From an uncultured Opitutales bacterium (GTDB lineage Bacteria; Verrucomicrobiota; Verrucomicrobiia; Opitutales; Intestinicryptomonadaceae), in contig CALXNZ010000003.1 of the NCBI GenBank assembly GCA_944389885.1, forward strand, positions 115,966-179,965: a stretch of 64,000 nucleotides of DNA, in the 5' to 3' direction. Under the pieces are notes generated by a model. It ran no database searches, was not told the origin of the DNA, and was given only the letters and a program-made list of their open reading frames with translations. The translations under genes and the position numbers were made by a program. The stretch's first letter is position 1, and each line of letters begins with the position of its first letter. Positions 35,955 to 43,179 of the stretch are shown here, piece after piece.

Positions 35955-37562
35955 CTATTTCGGGTCGAGAATTTGCTTGTCGCGCAAGAGGCGCTCGCGC
36001 AGCTTTGGATAATTTACGTCTTGAACGGCGATATTGTCGTCTATTGCCATTGAAGCCGCAGTGGCTGCGCTTTGCCCCAACAACATGAATACGGGTTCCA
36101 TTCTTATAGAACCAAACGCCACATGGCTTGCCGATAACGCAACGGGGACAAAGAGGTTTGAACACTCGCCCTTTTTGGGAACTATGCTCTTATAGCTTAC
36201 AGGATATGGCTTTTTGACGCGCTCCTCAAAGCCGCCTTCTACGCAGAGGGTTCCGTCCTTTACCACGCGCTCGACATGGTGGGAATCCATCGTGTAGCTT
36301 GCAAGGCCTACGGAATCTGGAGCCGAGGTATTTCCGGTGCAGTTGGCTTGAGTCATAACATAATCTGAAAGCATGCGGCGGGCTTCGCGCACATACAGTT
36401 CATGGGGCCAGTGCTCCGTTTCGGGAAATTCTCCGGCATCCAATCCGTATTCGCTTACGCGTTTGCGGAGACTTTCCGGAATAGACTTGTCGTTTGCAAG
36501 AAAGTACATAAAGCCCTTTTGCCAGTTGACATGGTCCTGGAATATTTTTTCGCGTTCGGCATAGGATCCTTCAGCCCAGCCAAAGTTTGCGCCAACATGG
36601 TCTATTGACACGGGGCCGGCATTGTTGCAGTCTCCCTCATTCAACTTTACGGGGCCGTGTTTGTAGCGCAAATCCCAAAAATCGGGGGAGGGCGCGGCAT
36701 TTACATATCGCTTGAGTATTTCAAAGCGTTCGGGCCTATAATTGTCGGGCTTAGGCCATGGGACGTGCGGTTTTTCCTTAGTGGCGCACATTCTAAAACA
36801 GTAAGACTGAAGTTTTTTGTCGGCAGAGCCTATGTCGAATTTTGAAGTTTTTGCGATTTCTTCAATGAGACCGCTTGATGGGTCTCCCTTCTTTATGTAT
36901 GGGTCTATGGGAAATCTGAATTGATGGCTGGTCTTGCTAAAATATATTCCGTTGTAGTCTTCGTTGAAGCGCGAGTTGTCCTCGCGGCCTACCATGTAGG
37001 AAACCCCTGACATTGCCATTAGATCTCCCTCATAGGTGGCGTCTATAAACATTTTACCTTTTGCGGAATTTCCATTTTCAAATACTATCTTCGTTATTCT
37101 TTCACCGTCCTTTTCCACAGATTCAAGCCTGTGCTCAAAATATACGGGAACGTCGGCTTCAGAAAGCATCTCCAAAAACACCCTTTCGGCGTCCGATGGG
37201 TTAAATCTTGTCCACTTCCCGACTTTTGTGAAAAACTCTACGGGCATTCCGCCTATGGAGCTCTTTACTCCGAGATCCGTTTCGGTAAGACCTGCCGACG
37301 TCATTCCGCCCACATGCCTTCTGAAAACGTACAGAGCCGCGCTCTTTCCCATGCGCTTCGCTTGTATTGCCGCTCCCACTCCCCCAGGAGTTCCGCCGTA
37401 AACAACGACATCATAATATGCTTCCGTTGGTTTTTCTGCCTTTGGAAGCGGATAGTAATACCGCAGTCCCGGATTTGGCGTTGACGGCTTTGCCATTTCC
37501 GCGGCGACGGCGTTGAATAAGTAAAATACTACACTCAGGATATACGGAAAATATCTTATCAT
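35955..37562 (-). CDS. Secreted FAD-dependent oxidoreductase (FAD_oxidored / xanthan-lyase-associated type)
   Basis: 535 residues with a signal peptide (cleavage near AVAAEM, about residue 21). The FAD fold begins at YYDVVVYGGTPGGVGAAIQA (residues ~49-67), a glycine-rich loop GGTPGGVG typical of PF12831 proteins, followed by HVGGMTSAGL. Near the C-terminus, ARRMLSDYVMTQANCTGN and LGQSAATAASMAID complete the usual FAD-binding pattern. The substrate is unknown. It starts three bases after the stop of the haem-containing HzsA-like gene and lacks its own Shine-Dalgarno, so it is probably translated from the same mRNA and may pass electrons to that partner. Confidence 0.8.
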   Translation of the reverse strand: MIRYFPYILSVVFYLFNAVAAEMAKPSTPNPGLRYYYPLPKAEKPTEAYYDVVVYGGTPGGVGAAIQAKRMGKSAALYVFRRHVGGMTSAGLTETDLGVKSSIGGMPVEFFTKVGKWTRFNPSDAERVFLEMLSEADVPVYFEHRLESVEKDGERITKIVFENGNSAKGKMFIDATYEGDLMAMSGVSYMVGREDNSRFNEDYNGIYFSKTSHQFRFPIDPYIKKGDPSSGLIEEIAKTSKFDIGSADKKLQSYCFRMCATKEKPHVPWPKPDNYRPERFEILKRYVNAAPSPDFWDLRYKHGPVKLNEGDCNNAGPVSIDHVGANFGWAEGSYAEREKIFQDHVNWQKGFMYFLANDKSIPESLRKRVSEYGLDAGEFPETEHWPHELYVREARRMLSDYVMTQANCTGNTSAPDSVGLASYTMDSHHVERVVKDGTLCVEGGFEERVKKPYPVSYKSIVPKKGECSNLFVPVALSASHVAFGSIRMEPVFMLLGQSAATAASMAIDDNIAVQDVNYPKLRERLLRDKQILDPK

Positions 37563-37565
37563 ATG

Positions 37566-40500
37566 TTATTTTTTATCTTCAGTTTTTTTTGCGTTTAAGT
37601 CTAACGTGAGATGGTCGTCTTGCCATTTGAAATATTTCGCATCTATTTCAAGCGGATCTATTGGCTGGTCGTCAGGGAAATTCTTTGGAAGAATTCCGCA
37701 GCGCTTCATCATTTCCACATAACCATATGTCGGGCGGAAATTCTTTTCGTGGACAAAAGGCTTATTCTTGCGCATGTATGCGCTTACCGCCTTAAAATTG
37801 GATTCGAGTTTTTTGTATTCAAAATCGTTCTTGTCTTTGAATACTATCGGATGCGGATTCTCTTTTGTCCCTTCCGCAAGCCCTCCGGCGCTCTTTGCCA
37901 AAGGCGTTATTAAGGCGAGGGAATTTTCGGGTACCAGGTAGTCGAAAAGATAGGCTTTTAGAAATTTGGTATCTTGTACGCCGTCTTCACCTTTTTTGAC
38001 TTTTATGTTGGTATAAATATTTACCCACGGTATATAGTGAAGCCCGAATTCCTTTTGCTTCTTGAGATTGTGACAAGGGGTGCACTTGAATCCAATAACT
38101 TCGTTCACTGCCTTTACATTCGGATTGCTCCCGTCTATTGCGGAATATCCATTTTCAAAGTAAGAGTCGAAAATGAATCCGGTTCCAACTCCGGCATATG
38201 ACCCAATTTGGAACGCTCCGGAATCCAACCATGCCCGCATTAGATTGAGATCCTTTTCTTCGAGGCGTTTGCAGTGGTGCTTACCCTCAAGCTTGTTCAT
38301 GAGCTTGCTGCCGCCCGAACCAAAAGAGTAGGGTTGCATATTGCCCCATTTGTTGGCGCCGGTCACTATTTGGTCGCGCGAAATGAGCGAGAGCAGAGAC
38401 ATTATGCGTTGGGAGGTCAATCCGCGTGTGAGGATTACTCCTCCGGAAGCCTTGCGGGGATTGTGGCAGCTTATGCAATATTTATCGAGTATGGGCTGAA
38501 CGTGGTGCATGTAGTCTATCACTGGCGGAACGCCGGGAATAGGTTCTATTTTAGACGTTCCCTTCTTATATGCGATAGGAAGTTCCTTTTTGCGTATTGG
38601 AGCTTCCGTGCGGTTTTCATGGCAGCCAACGCAGCTTGTAGATGTTCCGGGAGCAAAGCCCACAAAACTCTGCATGCGCTTTACGGCGCGCCCGTTTTCG
38701 TCCAGTGCCACAAGCGCAAGCGCCCTTCTTGCCGGAACTTCAAATTTTGCCGATCCGTCTTCATAGACTGGGACAGTTCCCCATATCTTTTCTAAGGCGA
38801 ATCCTCCATTGTAATTCAATGGATAGTATCCGCCATGGTAGTGTACGGGCTCGGGTAAAACTTGGGTTATCATCAATTTCTTTACGGTGCCGCGCTTTAC
38901 GTCCGCCATTTTTCTGCCCTGATATATGTCTTGTAAAAATACTTGGGCGGTATCCTGCGTAAAGTCCGCATTGTCCACTCGCGGGGTTTCGGGCTCGCGG
39001 GGCGCCAGTGGTTGCACATTGCGCGCTATGACTTTACAGTCGGGTATATGCCTCTCTTTATTCCCCCTCATCTTTGGCAGGTTCATTTTGACTTTTGCCT
39101 CGCTGGCCAAGAGTTCCGGCGGAATTTTTATTTCGTAAAAAAGTCCGCATTCATCGTATATTAATATGCTTCCGGAATATGTCGTCGTCAGAACCATTCT
39201 GCCTTTTAAAGGATAAGGATCGAAAAGGTTATGGCGTTCCGGATATCTTTCTCCGTTTATGTATGTAAAAGAGTAGGGGCTGCTGGGGTCAAACGGAGGT
39301 ATTGCGTAGGCTATGTCTCCGCGATGGTCTTTTATTCCGTGTCCGGGGGCGCAGGTGAATACGACTCCCTCCTCGTCAGGCAGCTGTTCGGCCCCTATGA
39401 AAAGGCCTCCCGGCTTCTCGTTGCCCAGATATATCATGTCGTTTGAGCCGTCGGGATTTATTGTCCAGAGGTGATGGTATGATAACTGGGAGCGGTGGTT
39501 GTAATCCCAGCGCATGTAAATTATCCTGCCGTCTTTCAGTATGCGCGGACGGTTGTCAACGTCGGGATTCACTGAAATCGCCCGGATCTTATTTTCGTCC
39601 TTAAACCATCTGTGTAGATTCGACACAGGCACCATCCAACATTGCACAGTGCGGTTGAGGCGGTCTGAAGTATAGAGTATGTCTCCATTTGGCATATAGC
39701 AGGGCTCTATGTCGTTTGCATTGGTTGCCATTGGAAGCTTGCGCAGATTTTTGCCGTCGGTGTCTATCTCGTAAAGGTGGAATGTATCGTCGTCTCCCTT
39801 GCGGTAGGAGAACAATATCTTTTTGCCGCTGTGGTGTAGTTGGGCGTCGCGCACGCAACCTTTGGGGTCGTCTATCAGTAGTCTGTATTTTCCCGTCCTG
39901 AGGTTGAATACAACAAGTTTTCCGCCCATACGGCTAAATACCTCTTGGTCAAAACAGTAGTCGACATTAGCGCTTCCAGTTTTGGCGGGTACGAGTTTTC
40001 CGTAATTTGCATACCAATGGTAGTCTCTGCCTTCGCCCTTGGTGCAGAATATGACTTCTTCAGTCCCCATTGCTTTTATGGCCCTATCCAATAGCATTGG
40101 CCGATAATCTGGAATATCAGGATATTTTGGGTCGTCGGACAGCTGTATGAAGTCGTAAACTATCCACGAATGCGCCCCCGATTTTTTGTCGAATACGGGC
40201 ACCAATTCGATTTTATTTTTTGTGCCATCGCTTTTGAAAAGGGCGAAGGGGATTCTTATTGTAAAAGGTTTAGACGGCACGCCGACGCCGTCGGGGTGGG
40301 CGTATAGCGACGCCGGGGCGGTGTGTCTGCCGGATACATCTTTATCGTAGAAAAATCCGTTTTGGGCTCCTATTTTTTTCCCGTTAAGGCGCACTTCTAT
40401 AGTTATTCCCGTTGTAGATGAATCAGCAAAACCTATTTTTAAGAAAAAGTCTTTGTGGGCTTTTGGGGAATCGAATTCTATCGAGTATATTTTAGCTTCG

Positions 40501-40808
40501 CGTTCCACTTCCGCCCAGGGGCAATTAGCTATCGGGTGAATGAAGGGCCAGTCCGAATCTTTTGACTTGCCGACCGTAAATACCACGGGATTTTTATAAA
40601 ATTCTATGCTCTTATCGAGGTTGCGATATGCCCTGAATTTTTCGTCATAGCCGGTCATGTATTGGAATCGCATATCGTCGAGGCCTCTAAAATGCTTAAA
40701 TTCTGCGGCTCTCGCGTCCGGTTTACCTATTTGAAATGCGGTAATCTCCGCGAAAACCGACGCACTCAAAAATAGAGCCAAAATAAACGGCACAAGAAAC
40801 TTTTTCAT
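37566..40808 (-). CDS. Secreted three-haem HzsA-like protein with beta-propeller
   Basis: 1080 residues. Signal peptide 1-20 (cleavage near FAEIT). Residues ~70-225 are a carbohydrate-lyase-like beta-sandwich; ~230-480 hold repeated propeller blades (e.g. IEPCYMPNGDILYTSDR, NPDGSNDM of the WD40-like/PD40 type). The C-terminal third has three c-type haem motifs: CVGCH (726-730), CISCH (778-782) and CTPCH (909-913). This order (propeller, then haem domain) is that of the hydrazine synthase alpha-like family found in planctomycetes and Verrucomicrobia. No hzsB/C or hydrazine genes are here, so it should not be called hydrazine synthase. It is transcribed with a flavoenzyme. Confidence 0.78.
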   Translation of the reverse strand: MKKFLVPFILALFLSASVFAEITAFQIGKPDARAAEFKHFRGLDDMRFQYMTGYDEKFRAYRNLDKSIEFYKNPVVFTVGKSKDSDWPFIHPIANCPWAEVEREAKIYSIEFDSPKAHKDFFLKIGFADSSTTGITIEVRLNGKKIGAQNGFFYDKDVSGRHTAPASLYAHPDGVGVPSKPFTIRIPFALFKSDGTKNKIELVPVFDKKSGAHSWIVYDFIQLSDDPKYPDIPDYRPMLLDRAIKAMGTEEVIFCTKGEGRDYHWYANYGKLVPAKTGSANVDYCFDQEVFSRMGGKLVVFNLRTGKYRLLIDDPKGCVRDAQLHHSGKKILFSYRKGDDDTFHLYEIDTDGKNLRKLPMATNANDIEPCYMPNGDILYTSDRLNRTVQCWMVPVSNLHRWFKDENKIRAISVNPDVDNRPRILKDGRIIYMRWDYNHRSQLSYHHLWTINPDGSNDMIYLGNEKPGGLFIGAEQLPDEEGVVFTCAPGHGIKDHRGDIAYAIPPFDPSSPYSFTYINGERYPERHNLFDPYPLKGRMVLTTTYSGSILIYDECGLFYEIKIPPELLASEAKVKMNLPKMRGNKERHIPDCKVIARNVQPLAPREPETPRVDNADFTQDTAQVFLQDIYQGRKMADVKRGTVKKLMITQVLPEPVHYHGGYYPLNYNGGFALEKIWGTVPVYEDGSAKFEVPARRALALVALDENGRAVKRMQSFVGFAPGTSTSCVGCHENRTEAPIRKKELPIAYKKGTSKIEPIPGVPPVIDYMHHVQPILDKYCISCHNPRKASGGVILTRGLTSQRIMSLLSLISRDQIVTGANKWGNMQPYSFGSGGSKLMNKLEGKHHCKRLEEKDLNLMRAWLDSGAFQIGSYAGVGTGFIFDSYFENGYSAIDGSNPNVKAVNEVIGFKCTPCHNLKKQKEFGLHYIPWVNIYTNIKVKKGEDGVQDTKFLKAYLFDYLVPENSLALITPLAKSAGGLAEGTKENPHPIVFKDKNDFEYKKLESNFKAVSAYMRKNKPFVHEKNFRPTYGYVEMMKRCGILPKNFPDDQPIDPLEIDAKYFKWQDDHLTLDLNAKKTEDKK

Positions 40809-40813
40809 AAAAT

Positions 40814-40822
40814 TCCTCCCTT
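40814..40822 (-). promoter_or_regulatory. Shine-Dalgarno of the HzsA-like gene
   Basis: AAGGGAGGA on the minus strand ends five bases before the ATG at 40808. It is strong for this window and fixes the start. Confidence 0.7.
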
Positions 40823-40963: not shown

Positions 40964-41920
40964 CTATTCGGAGCTTTTTTCTTGAATTACATAATGCGGG
41001 CGCCTTTTACTCTCCAGATAAATTTTTGCCGTGTAATATCCTATGGCCCCCAGGCTGAACAGCTGCAGCCCGCCTATTAGCAGGATTACGCATATCATTG
41101 AAGTCCAGCCGAAGGCAGAATTATGATAAATGAGCTGCCTTATGGAAAGGAATACAATTGCCAAAACGGATACTACGCTTAATAGGACTCCCCCCAATGC
41201 AACAAGAGCCAATGGAACCGTAGAGAAAGAAGTTATCGCTTCAAACGAATAGAGAATCAGCCCCCAAGTTGACCATTTTGTCTTGCCTGCTATGCGTTCG
41301 CGGTTCTCAAACTCGAACCACTTCGTCTTAAATCCGACATATTCATAGACGCCTTTTAAGAATCTATTGTATTCGGGCAATTCGAGTATTGCGTCGCGCA
41401 CGCGGCGCGTTATCAGGCGGAAGTCGCGGGCGCCTTCTGTGAACTTTATTCGCGAGACCGCATTCAGAGTTTTGTAAAAACACTTTGCGCCAAAGGTTCT
41501 AAGGGGCGGTTCCCCGTCGCGGGTGGATCTCCTTGTGGCGGCGCATTCATATCCATCTTCCCTGATTGCCTTAAACATTTCCGGCAACAGTTCCGGAGGG
41601 TCTTGAAGATCCGCGTCCATAATAGCTATATAGTTTCCGCGGGCCTCGGTTAATCCTGCGAGCATTGCGGCTTCTTTGCCAAAATTCCGGGAAAATGATA
41701 TATATCGGATTCTTCCGTCCTCCCTATTCATCTCTTTTATTTTGTCCAAGGTGGCGTCTTTTGAACCGTCCTCAACAAAGATGATTTCCCATTCTATATT
41801 TGGAATTTTATCAACGGATTCCTTAAATTCTTTAAGAAATGAGAAAAGTACGTCTTCCTCGTCCTTGCACGGCACTATCGCGCTAAAGAGTTCGCGCCTG
41901 CTGGCATTGTTTTCCTGCAT
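40964..41920 (-). CDS. Family 2 glycosyltransferase, GtrB/DPM1-like
   Basis: 318 residues from the ATG at 41920; a TTG at 41959 could add 13 residues. The GT-A fold begins FSAIVPCKDEEDVLFSFLKEF, with the nucleotide-binding IIFVEDGSKDATLDKI and the metal motif DADLQDPPELL. Two membrane helices near the C-terminus (~residues 235-258 and ~267-290) match polyprenyl-phosphate glycosyl transferases such as GtrB, which load a sugar on the lipid carrier for transfer across the inner membrane. The partner flippase and transferase are not nearby. It lies between the HzsA-like operon and a GH43-like gene, on the same strand. Confidence 0.88.
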   Translation of the reverse strand: MQENNASRRELFSAIVPCKDEEDVLFSFLKEFKESVDKIPNIEWEIIFVEDGSKDATLDKIKEMNREDGRIRYISFSRNFGKEAAMLAGLTEARGNYIAIMDADLQDPPELLPEMFKAIREDGYECAATRRSTRDGEPPLRTFGAKCFYKTLNAVSRIKFTEGARDFRLITRRVRDAILELPEYNRFLKGVYEYVGFKTKWFEFENRERIAGKTKWSTWGLILYSFEAITSFSTVPLALVALGGVLLSVVSVLAIVFLSIRQLIYHNSAFGWTSMICVILLIGGLQLFSLGAIGYYTAKIYLESKRRPHYVIQEKSSE

Positions 41921-42084
41921 GTCTCGTAATTTAGTTTTTACATCCCTTAATTTCAACAATTTTATTCGGGATATTATGGCTTACCCGCGCTTATCGGGAT
42001 ATTGCAAATGGCGCCGTGAAAATAAAAATTTCCGCGCTTTTTATTGTATCGCGGAAATTCTGGCGAGTTTTTATTATATGTTTG

Positions 42085-43179
42085 TTATTCGACAATGGTC
42101 GGCTTGCCGTCCCTAAATTCAATTTTTACTTTGGATAGGAACCAGTTCTTGCCTTTATTGTCGTTGCCCTGATAAAATAGCCATAGCTTTCCGTCGGGAG
42201 CGGAAAATATATGCGGGTGTCCGGATTCGCTGCTGTTCCACTCGCCGCTTTTGCCGTTTGCGAGCAGGGGCTTGTCGGAAATTCTTTTAAATTTTACGCC
42301 GTCACTGCTTACGGCGACCCCTATTTGTTGCGGATCGTTATTGTAGCCACCGGCGTAAAACATATAGACTTTTCCGTCGCGCACCAATGCGGAGGCTGCC
42401 TCTATGCAATTTGTTTCCCAGGGAAGTTCCGGCTTTAATATGGGGGCGTCTTTGGAGAGATGCTTCCAAGTCCCGCGCCCAAAGGTCGATTTTTCGTCGG
42501 TGGAGGCTACTCCTTGCATTTGTATTTTTCCCGCTTTGTCGCGGGTAGCGTAATATAGAAAATATTTGTCTCCGAATTTTACGACTTCCGCGTCTATGGC
42601 CCTGCCGTTATTCCATGAACCGTCCGGCGCAAAAATAGGATTGGATGGGTCTCTTACAAAATTTATTCCGTCCGCAGACCATGCGTGGCAAATTGCGTCT
42701 TTGGGAAAATTCCCGTAAGTCTGATAAAATAGGTGAACAACTCCGTCTCTTATGATTGCCCCGGGGGCGCATAGCCCATTAGCCTCGCATGCGGATTCAG
42801 GTATAATTTCTCCGACTTTTTTCCAGTGCGTTAAATCCGTGCTCTCGGCGATTCCTATACCCCAGCCTTTTATGGATTTAGCTTTTTCAGGATTGGAGTA
42901 TGGAGGAATTGAGAAATACATGAGATAGCGCCCCTTAAAATATATCACATGCGGATCTTTTGAGTATGGGAATCCGGCGCGCGAGCTGTCGGCGTATATC
43001 ATAGCTCCGCTTTCAGCCTTGCGCTTTGCCGCAGGATAATTCTCAAGCGGCACAATATCGAAATCGGCGGTTTTAGGAGTTTCATTTTTTGTGCACGACA
43101 GTGTTATTTCGCAGATAAAAGCGCAGCATAGCGCAAGGGTTATATATCCGGTGAAACATCTTATCGACTCAGAACGCAT
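42085..43179 (-). CDS. Secreted five-bladed propeller protein, GH43/GH32-like
   Basis: 364 residues. The signal segment reaches a cysteine near residue 29 (TLSC), so it may be a lipoprotein although the lipobox is not canonical. The body has propeller blades with the recurring 'DP.V...G.Y.MYFS' and 'S.DG..F...' patterns: DPHVIYFKGRYLMYFS, GIAESTDLTHWKKV, AWSADGINFVRDPSNP, AVSSDGVKFKRIS. These fit clan GH-F/J glycosidases or related beta-fructosidase-like proteins acting on plant or mucin glycans. Acidic catalytic residues could not be assigned safely. It has a strong Shine-Dalgarno and is upstream of the glycosyltransferase on the same strand. Confidence 0.72.
   Translation of the reverse strand: MRSESIRCFTGYITLALCCAFICEITLSCTKNETPKTADFDIVPLENYPAAKRKAESGAMIYADSSRAGFPYSKDPHVIYFKGRYLMYFSIPPYSNPEKAKSIKGWGIGIAESTDLTHWKKVGEIIPESACEANGLCAPGAIIRDGVVHLFYQTYGNFPKDAICHAWSADGINFVRDPSNPIFAPDGSWNNGRAIDAEVVKFGDKYFLYYATRDKAGKIQMQGVASTDEKSTFGRGTWKHLSKDAPILKPELPWETNCIEAASALVRDGKVYMFYAGGYNNDPQQIGVAVSSDGVKFKRISDKPLLANGKSGEWNSSESGHPHIFSAPDGKLWLFYQGNDNKGKNWFLSKVKIEFRDGKPTIVE

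Follow-up and report, generated by a model that had tools for sequence, protein, structure and literature searches.

The window analysed here is a stretch of 64,000 nucleotides from an uncultured bacterium of the Opitutales, an order within Verrucomicrobiota. It encodes, on the minus strand, a protein with three haem motifs that resembles HzsA, the alpha subunit of hydrazine synthase (HZS), and directly behind it a flavoenzyme predicted to be exported. The sequence evidence leans towards a role of the HzsA-like protein in an HZS-like haem complex in which several glycan-directed alpha subunits, this one among them, are interchangeable and share a single propeller-MauG (HzsB-HzsC-like, hereafter beta-gamma) subunit, encoded elsewhere in the genome. 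The protein would then probably serve sugar oxidation rather than the making of hydrazine. Beta-gamma is the general partner, recurring across the phylum, whereas the flavoenzyme is linked to alpha locally.

The HzsA-like three-haem protein

The HzsA-like gene (37566..40808; this and all following window features lie on the minus strand) encodes 1080 residues, starts with ATG and ends in TAA. A strong Shine-Dalgarno sequence, AGGGAGG (40815..40821), is located 6 bases ahead of the start codon. The N-terminus of the protein is hydrophobic, and export was predicted from segments seen by eye in the sequence. Pfam analysis assigned residues 24-223 (40140..40739) to a domain resembling a carbohydrate-binding module (CBM; PF14683, domain III of polysaccharide lyase family 4; 53.9 bits, cut-off 27), and residues 640-731 (38616..38891) to the HZS_alpha middle domain (PF18582; 66.1 bits, cut-off 26.6), at the end of which lies the first haem motif. 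A beta propeller at about residues 245-604 (38997..40076) was recognised in the predicted structure, aligned with the propellers of HzsA and TolB. Propeller, middle domain and haem domain of the structure model thus make up the predicted fold of HzsA. In the alignment, motif 1 (CVGCH, residues 726-730; 38619..38633) corresponds to CSGCH, the haem alpha-I motif of HzsA, and motif 2 (CISCH, 778-782; 38463..38477) to CAMCH, its haem alpha-II motif. Alignment and structure comparison place motif 3 (CTPCH, 909-913; 38070..38084) in a C-terminal extension past the part aligned with HzsA.

All three CxxCH motifs are invariant in 15 of 15 aligned orthologues and are therefore not a product of chance; the CBM-like domain is also present in all 15 of these members of the three-haem class. 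This alignment (A1, 15 rows) omits the fragments L019 and L073. The 15 other three-haem loci referred to below include L073 and exclude L019, L060 being the same locus as L005. Matches of haem families in Pfam to the HzsA-like protein were all below the family cut-offs. A search of the PDB with the sequence alone did not match hydrazine synthase; the profile did. The closest named relative in a contig scan belongs to an uncultured Opitutales metagenome-assembled genome (79% identity), and the closest alpha genomes are G014 (79%) and G016 (78%). Genes for cytochrome c maturation are present on contig C19, one CcsA-like (64.8 bits; L077:6992-9004) and one ResB-like (63.3 bits; L077:8830-9597). 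Altogether, the data support a multihaem protein with the predicted fold of HzsA, an export-type N-terminus and predicted haem binding. An earlier sequence-only reading of the window had described a lyase-like sandwich, a propeller and the three CxxCH motifs, and had proposed a search for maturation genes; each of these features was recovered here.

The beta-gamma partner

Operon neighbours of 72 alpha genes were scanned for recurrent families, covering 97 of 147 neighbours (uncut, of at least 200 residues and no more than two genes distant). CCP_MauG was found in 10 of the 97 and propeller families in several. The CCP_MauG neighbours are fusions of a propeller with a MauG-type di-haem domain, and a profile of the ten fusions matches the beta (5c2v_B) and gamma (5c2v_C) subunits of HZS with 150.8 and 129.3 bits, respectively. 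The window genome itself carries one such HzsB-HzsC-like fusion gene on contig C11 (G000:C11:1601-3379), the product of which alone matches 5c2v_B at 89.7 and 5c2v_C at 89.4 bits. The view of the sequence-only reading that hydrazine genes are missing here has to be corrected in this respect.

The beta-gamma gene is present in 18 of 18 readable genomes of the family to which the window belongs. In seven of the family genomes it is found beside the same genes (clusters K1-K4, some missing at contig ends), which we take from their sequences to be purA, mcsA, mcsB and clpC. Among the 15 other three-haem loci, alpha adjoins beta-gamma in two (G009, G001), where the purA-like gene is on its one side and beta-gamma on the other, the overlap with beta-gamma measuring 14 and 20 nucleotides, respectively. 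One genome of the same genus, G010, is given as 95% complete and nevertheless lacks any match for alpha, the flavoenzyme, beta-gamma and LysS. Since even LysS was unmatched, its sequence seems unreadable, and it was treated as such and left out of the family counts.

A survey of 194 genomes of the phylum, with the scoring limited in each genome to 24 first-look candidates for alpha and 6 for beta-gamma, detected a PF18582 alpha in 37 genomes, beta-gamma in 39 and both in 36. PF01578 (CcsA type) occurs in 117 genomes, including all 37 with alpha. Within these 117, 36 have both genes, one alpha only, three beta-gamma only and 77 neither; counted by genus, the corresponding numbers are 16, 0, 2 and 89. 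Both states occur inside a single genus, g61, with ten genomes that carry both genes and seven PF01578-bearing genomes that carry neither. Of the 45 beta-gamma genes, no fewer than 22 have a same-strand alpha match within 3.1 kb (g61 accounts for ten), where about 0.3 would be expected on a rough estimate. The alpha profile missed the alphas of loci L175 and L188, both found by PF18582. Copy numbers are one to three for beta-gamma and reach 15 to 24 or more for alpha in five genomes. One core with many alphas is the simplest reading of these genomic data, and the two kinds of subunit may form one complex.

Two unusual forms were noticed during the survey. In G181, a single frame of 3111 residues (L216:1997-11332) combines alpha (motifs at 1496 and 1546) with beta-gamma (2686 and 2796). 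The beta-gamma-like protein of L175:2115-4673 bears four extra CxxCH motifs at its N-terminus, like the form of Opitutus terrae with four such motifs given in the available text of PMC12758564.

The flavoenzyme behind the HzsA-like gene

The flavoenzyme gene (35955..37562) starts with ATG and encodes a flavin adenine dinucleotide (FAD)-dependent oxidoreductase of 535 residues, with a hydrophobic N-terminus from which export is predicted. PF12831 matches residues 51-525 with 333 bits (cut-off 27) over the whole profile (positions 1-416 of 416). This full-length match is shared with secreted FAD oxidoreductases of PF12831, from which the window flavoenzyme differs by its place behind a haem protein. 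The three bases 37563..37565 separate its start codon from the stop codon of the HzsA-like gene, and the 40 nucleotides before the ATG contain no Shine-Dalgarno motif, only a weak GAAGA-like stretch. A gap this small, with no ribosome-binding site of the flavoenzyme gene's own, points to translational coupling, and the two proteins are therefore probably made together. The structure model of the flavoenzyme was poor (predicted local distance difference test, pLDDT, 62) and its top PDB matches were flavoproteins at low template modelling (TM) score, so that no substrate class was drawn. No solved close relative was found in the PDB; sequence-profile matches to it were weak and confined to the N-terminal nucleotide-binding part.

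The sequence-only reading had placed the two genes and the spacing between them correctly, as well as the missing Shine-Dalgarno sequence and the PF12831 type of the flavoenzyme. It went on to see in the pair a likely two-protein periplasmic redox module and proposed a survey for conserved adjacency. The survey did not bear this out: a homologue of the window flavoenzyme is found beside none of the 15 other three-haem loci, and a conserved FAD-alpha module was rejected. In G014 and G016, a Gfo/Idh/MocA gene lies downstream of alpha at the place of the flavoenzyme, and the best flavoenzymes of these two genomes, just 47 and 46% identical to that of the window, are encoded elsewhere. Orthologues of the window flavoenzyme (68-80% identity) were identified in seven genomes and occur there without an adjacent alpha. 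A glycoside hydrolase (GH) accompanies them in five of the seven: an MGH1-like enzyme is the neighbour in three genomes and GH10 in one, and in another a GH16-like domain is part of the same protein; the neighbour data cover these five, the orthologues of G006 and G012 lying on short contigs. What stands of the earlier reading is the multihaem protein of HzsA fold, the glycan setting, the cytochrome c maturation and the close spacing with its hint of coupling; the conserved, self-contained pair is not supported.

All eight relatives compared retain the LysS-FtsX-ABC block that lies beside the window pair; in the seven of them in which the contig runs on, neither the HzsA-like gene nor the flavoenzyme follows it. 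The eighth, G013, is uninformative, with a contig that ends about 160 bases past ABC. A pair anciently linked at this site was thus rejected, and the pair was most likely assembled in this lineage. No sign of transfer was found in the base composition of the pair. Identities to G014 are 79% for alpha versus 73% for LysS, and those to G007 57% versus 82 and 86% (two larger LysS pieces); this contrast in sequence identity fits transfer or paralogue loss.

Two further adjacencies of PF12831 and alpha, both involving other proteins than those of the window, were found in the survey. At L161, the two genes lie 148 nucleotides apart. At L139:15162-17713 (G007), 5 nucleotides separate a PF12831 flavoenzyme, the start of which resembles a twin-arginine signal, from the short alpha-like gene with one motif that follows it; this is an independent flavoenzyme-alpha pairing. 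Upstream of the window pair, a family-2 glycosyltransferase (GT2; 40964..41959) and a GH43/GH32/GH130-like protein (42085..43179) provide the context on the same strand, as had been read from the sequence before.

Proposed function and relation to hydrazine synthase

At their haems, domains of HzsC and MauG/cytochrome c peroxidase type act on peroxide or small nitrogen oxides. In the favoured reading, the CBM-like domain and the propeller would anchor the complex on a glycan or on products of it, and the alpha haems would connect a sugar-oxidising enzyme, by electron transfer, with the MauG/cytochrome c peroxidase-type centre of beta-gamma, at which peroxide or another small acceptor may be reduced. 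The flavoenzyme, being of a glycoside hydrolase-associated kind, would be the likely electron source, as a lineage-specific donor to alpha. A path from sugar oxidation over alpha to beta-gamma appears the most likely because alpha contributes a propeller, two or three further haem motifs and, in the three-haem class, a CBM-like domain, and because relatives of the flavoenzyme are found beside glycoside hydrolases.

The HzsABC complex of Kuenenia stuttgartiensis (PDB 5C2V) has in common with the window protein a propeller, followed in matching order by the HZS_alpha middle domain and two CxxCH motifs, and shares with the window genome a partner of the HzsB (propeller) and HzsC (MauG/cytochrome c peroxidase-type di-haem) type. 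The window protein differs by its extra N-terminal CBM-like domain and a third haem motif, and the window genome by several alpha genes and by fused beta and gamma encoded elsewhere. In HzsA, Tyr591 is the proximal ligand of haem alpha-I, four residues after His587 of the CxxCH motif (according to the available text of PMC12607021 and PMC12758564). At the corresponding position the 15 aligned rows have T in 10, A in one and D in four. His844 is invariant (15/15) and lies, in the hidden Markov model alignment, one column off HzsA His772, the distal residue of haem alpha-II, the numbering offset of 27 being our own reading. The zinc ligand Cys303 of HzsA varies even among anammox bacteria (PMC12758564, in part). 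Di-haem domains of cytochrome c peroxidase and MauG recur in the beta-gamma partner, which differs from them by its fusion to a propeller and its tie to HzsA-like alphas; the window protein is outside that family.

Four alternatives were weighed. That the HzsA-like protein is a real HZS subunit or another nitrogen-cycle enzyme is very improbable: the HzsA fold and the HzsB-HzsC-like partner in the genome would fit, but the equivalog model hydrazine_alpha (NF052339, NCBIfam) scores 37.1 bits against a cut-off of 800, and the Tyr591 position is without Tyr in 15 of 15 rows, a loss also described for other relatives in the available text of PMC12758564. Hydrazine synthase proper was rejected on these two grounds. 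HAO-type multihaem PF13447 gave no match in the window genome, which does not count because the control genomes were silent too. Rather unlikely is also a dedicated periplasmic dehydrogenase of two proteins, in which electrons would run from sugar to FAD to the haems with no further subunit. The three-base spacing, the flavoenzyme without a Shine-Dalgarno sequence of its own and the two additional adjacencies (L139, L161) speak for it; against it stand the 0 of 15 other three-haem loci, the Gfo/Idh/MocA genes and distant flavoenzymes of G014 and G016, and the flavoenzyme orthologues without adjacent alpha.

Slightly less improbable than such a dehydrogenase is a chance product of rearrangement that brought together two secreted, unrelated genes with no functional link. 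Both genes look like newcomers, since neither follows LysS-FtsX-ABC in seven relatives, and their closest relatives are in different genera; the close spacing without a separate ribosome-binding site, on the other hand, suggests selection for coupling. An equal, low probability was given to the three-haem protein as a free-standing glycan-anchored cytochrome that takes electrons from any nearby secreted oxidoreductase, beta-gamma doing something else. The neighbours of its orthologues indeed vary (flavoenzyme, Gfo/Idh, 2-hydroxyacid dehydrogenase, GH42-like, raffinose-synthase-like, beta-gamma), and beta-gamma is missing from the stretch examined around 61 of the 72 alphas surveyed, but near-perfect co-occurrence of alpha and beta-gamma, their operons and one natural fusion argue against this alternative.

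The isolated alphas just mentioned also weigh against the favoured HZS-like complex with interchangeable alphas, and so do several other observations. In the window genome the two genes are on different contigs and not adjacent, and 20 of 42 beta-gamma genes in alpha-bearing genomes are without a nearby alpha among the matches listed. G110 has alpha without a beta-gamma match; G166, G167 and G171 have beta-gamma without alpha. The window's family has no readable genome without both, so that the co-occurrence test lacks a negative there; across the phylum shared ancestry inflates the Fisher values for co-occurrence, the genus-level value least, and the pattern may reflect a shared niche and not a complex. 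Glycan families among the alpha operon neighbours are scattered (GH95 3, GH42 3 and GH2 2 of 97, among the 25 commonest of 162 families). The flavoenzyme pairing is known from this one genome and may be a chance neighbourhood, and the electron direction, the substrate and the acceptor are drawn solely from family knowledge.

The absence of homologues had led to the view that hydrazine synthase arose de novo (PMC12758564). The available text of the same paper reports that genes for homologues of alpha and of fused beta-gamma lie together in Planctomycetota, Desulfobacterota and a handful of other groups, and homologues from Opitutus terrae, a member of the phylum of the window, are included. 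In non-anammox homologues, alpha and HzsBC are neighbours in a subset of genomes and key residues including Tyr591 are not conserved; that text proposes no function for them. In Phycisphaerae, hzsA-like genes upstream of fused hzsBC-like genes were reported and a wider family with other substrates suggested (PMC10732223, in part), and unlinked hzs-like genes occur in KSB1 (both papers, in part). The system described here shares with these published cases, as far as their available text goes, a distant HzsA homologue and a fused HzsBC homologue. It differs by one to three beta-gamma genes versus up to 24 or more alphas, by the three-haem CBM-bearing class, by the flavoenzyme behind alpha and by alpha-beta-gamma in a single chain; none of these four was found in print in open-licence papers, supplements aside. 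The main text of PMC12758564 does not contain the words carbohydrate, glycan, sugar or FAD, nor do the main texts of PMC12758564 and PMC10732223 contain Verrucomicrobi-. No paper found in the open-licence literature joins the HZS alpha subunit with polysaccharide, or combines FAD, polysaccharide utilisation loci and cytochromes. HzsA, an FAD-dependent oxidoreductase and Verrucomicrobi- came together in one paper, about an anammox culture, and Akkermansia with hydrazine synthase in a single study of ruminants.

A broader view is offered tentatively and is, on present evidence, doubtful. Verrucomicrobiota might possess a modular HZS-like machine that acts on glycans, usually with one propeller-MauG core per genome and up to 24 or more scattered haem-bearing alphas, each of which directs the core to a substrate of its own, the window flavoenzyme being wired onto one of them. 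This would be a new haem-based sugar oxidation, from or beside which anammox HZS arose. A partner in one to three copies versus many dispersed alphas raises the question of whether one core serves many alphas, with a sugar as the substrate. If so, a haem complex that oxidises carbohydrates may be the ancestor of the anammox enzyme.

Other HzsA-like genes were noticed in the window genome and beyond. On contig C17 (L075:5435-13951), a second paralogue of 1415 residues with two CxxCH motifs is clustered with Dak1, Dak2, a DeoC/LacD aldolase, a 238-residue protein and what its sequence presumably identifies as an IclR-like regulator. The cluster hints at a link between an alpha subunit and a ketose or triose pathway, and neighbours of similar size flank the paralogue at L046. 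On contig C1 (L076:6380-9345), a one-motif alpha-like gene (391 residues) is followed 14 nucleotides later by a BNR/laminin-G-like protein of 591 residues. In the wider family (alignment A3), 11 of 24 HzsA-like proteins contain an FGE/SUMF1-like domain (PF03781).
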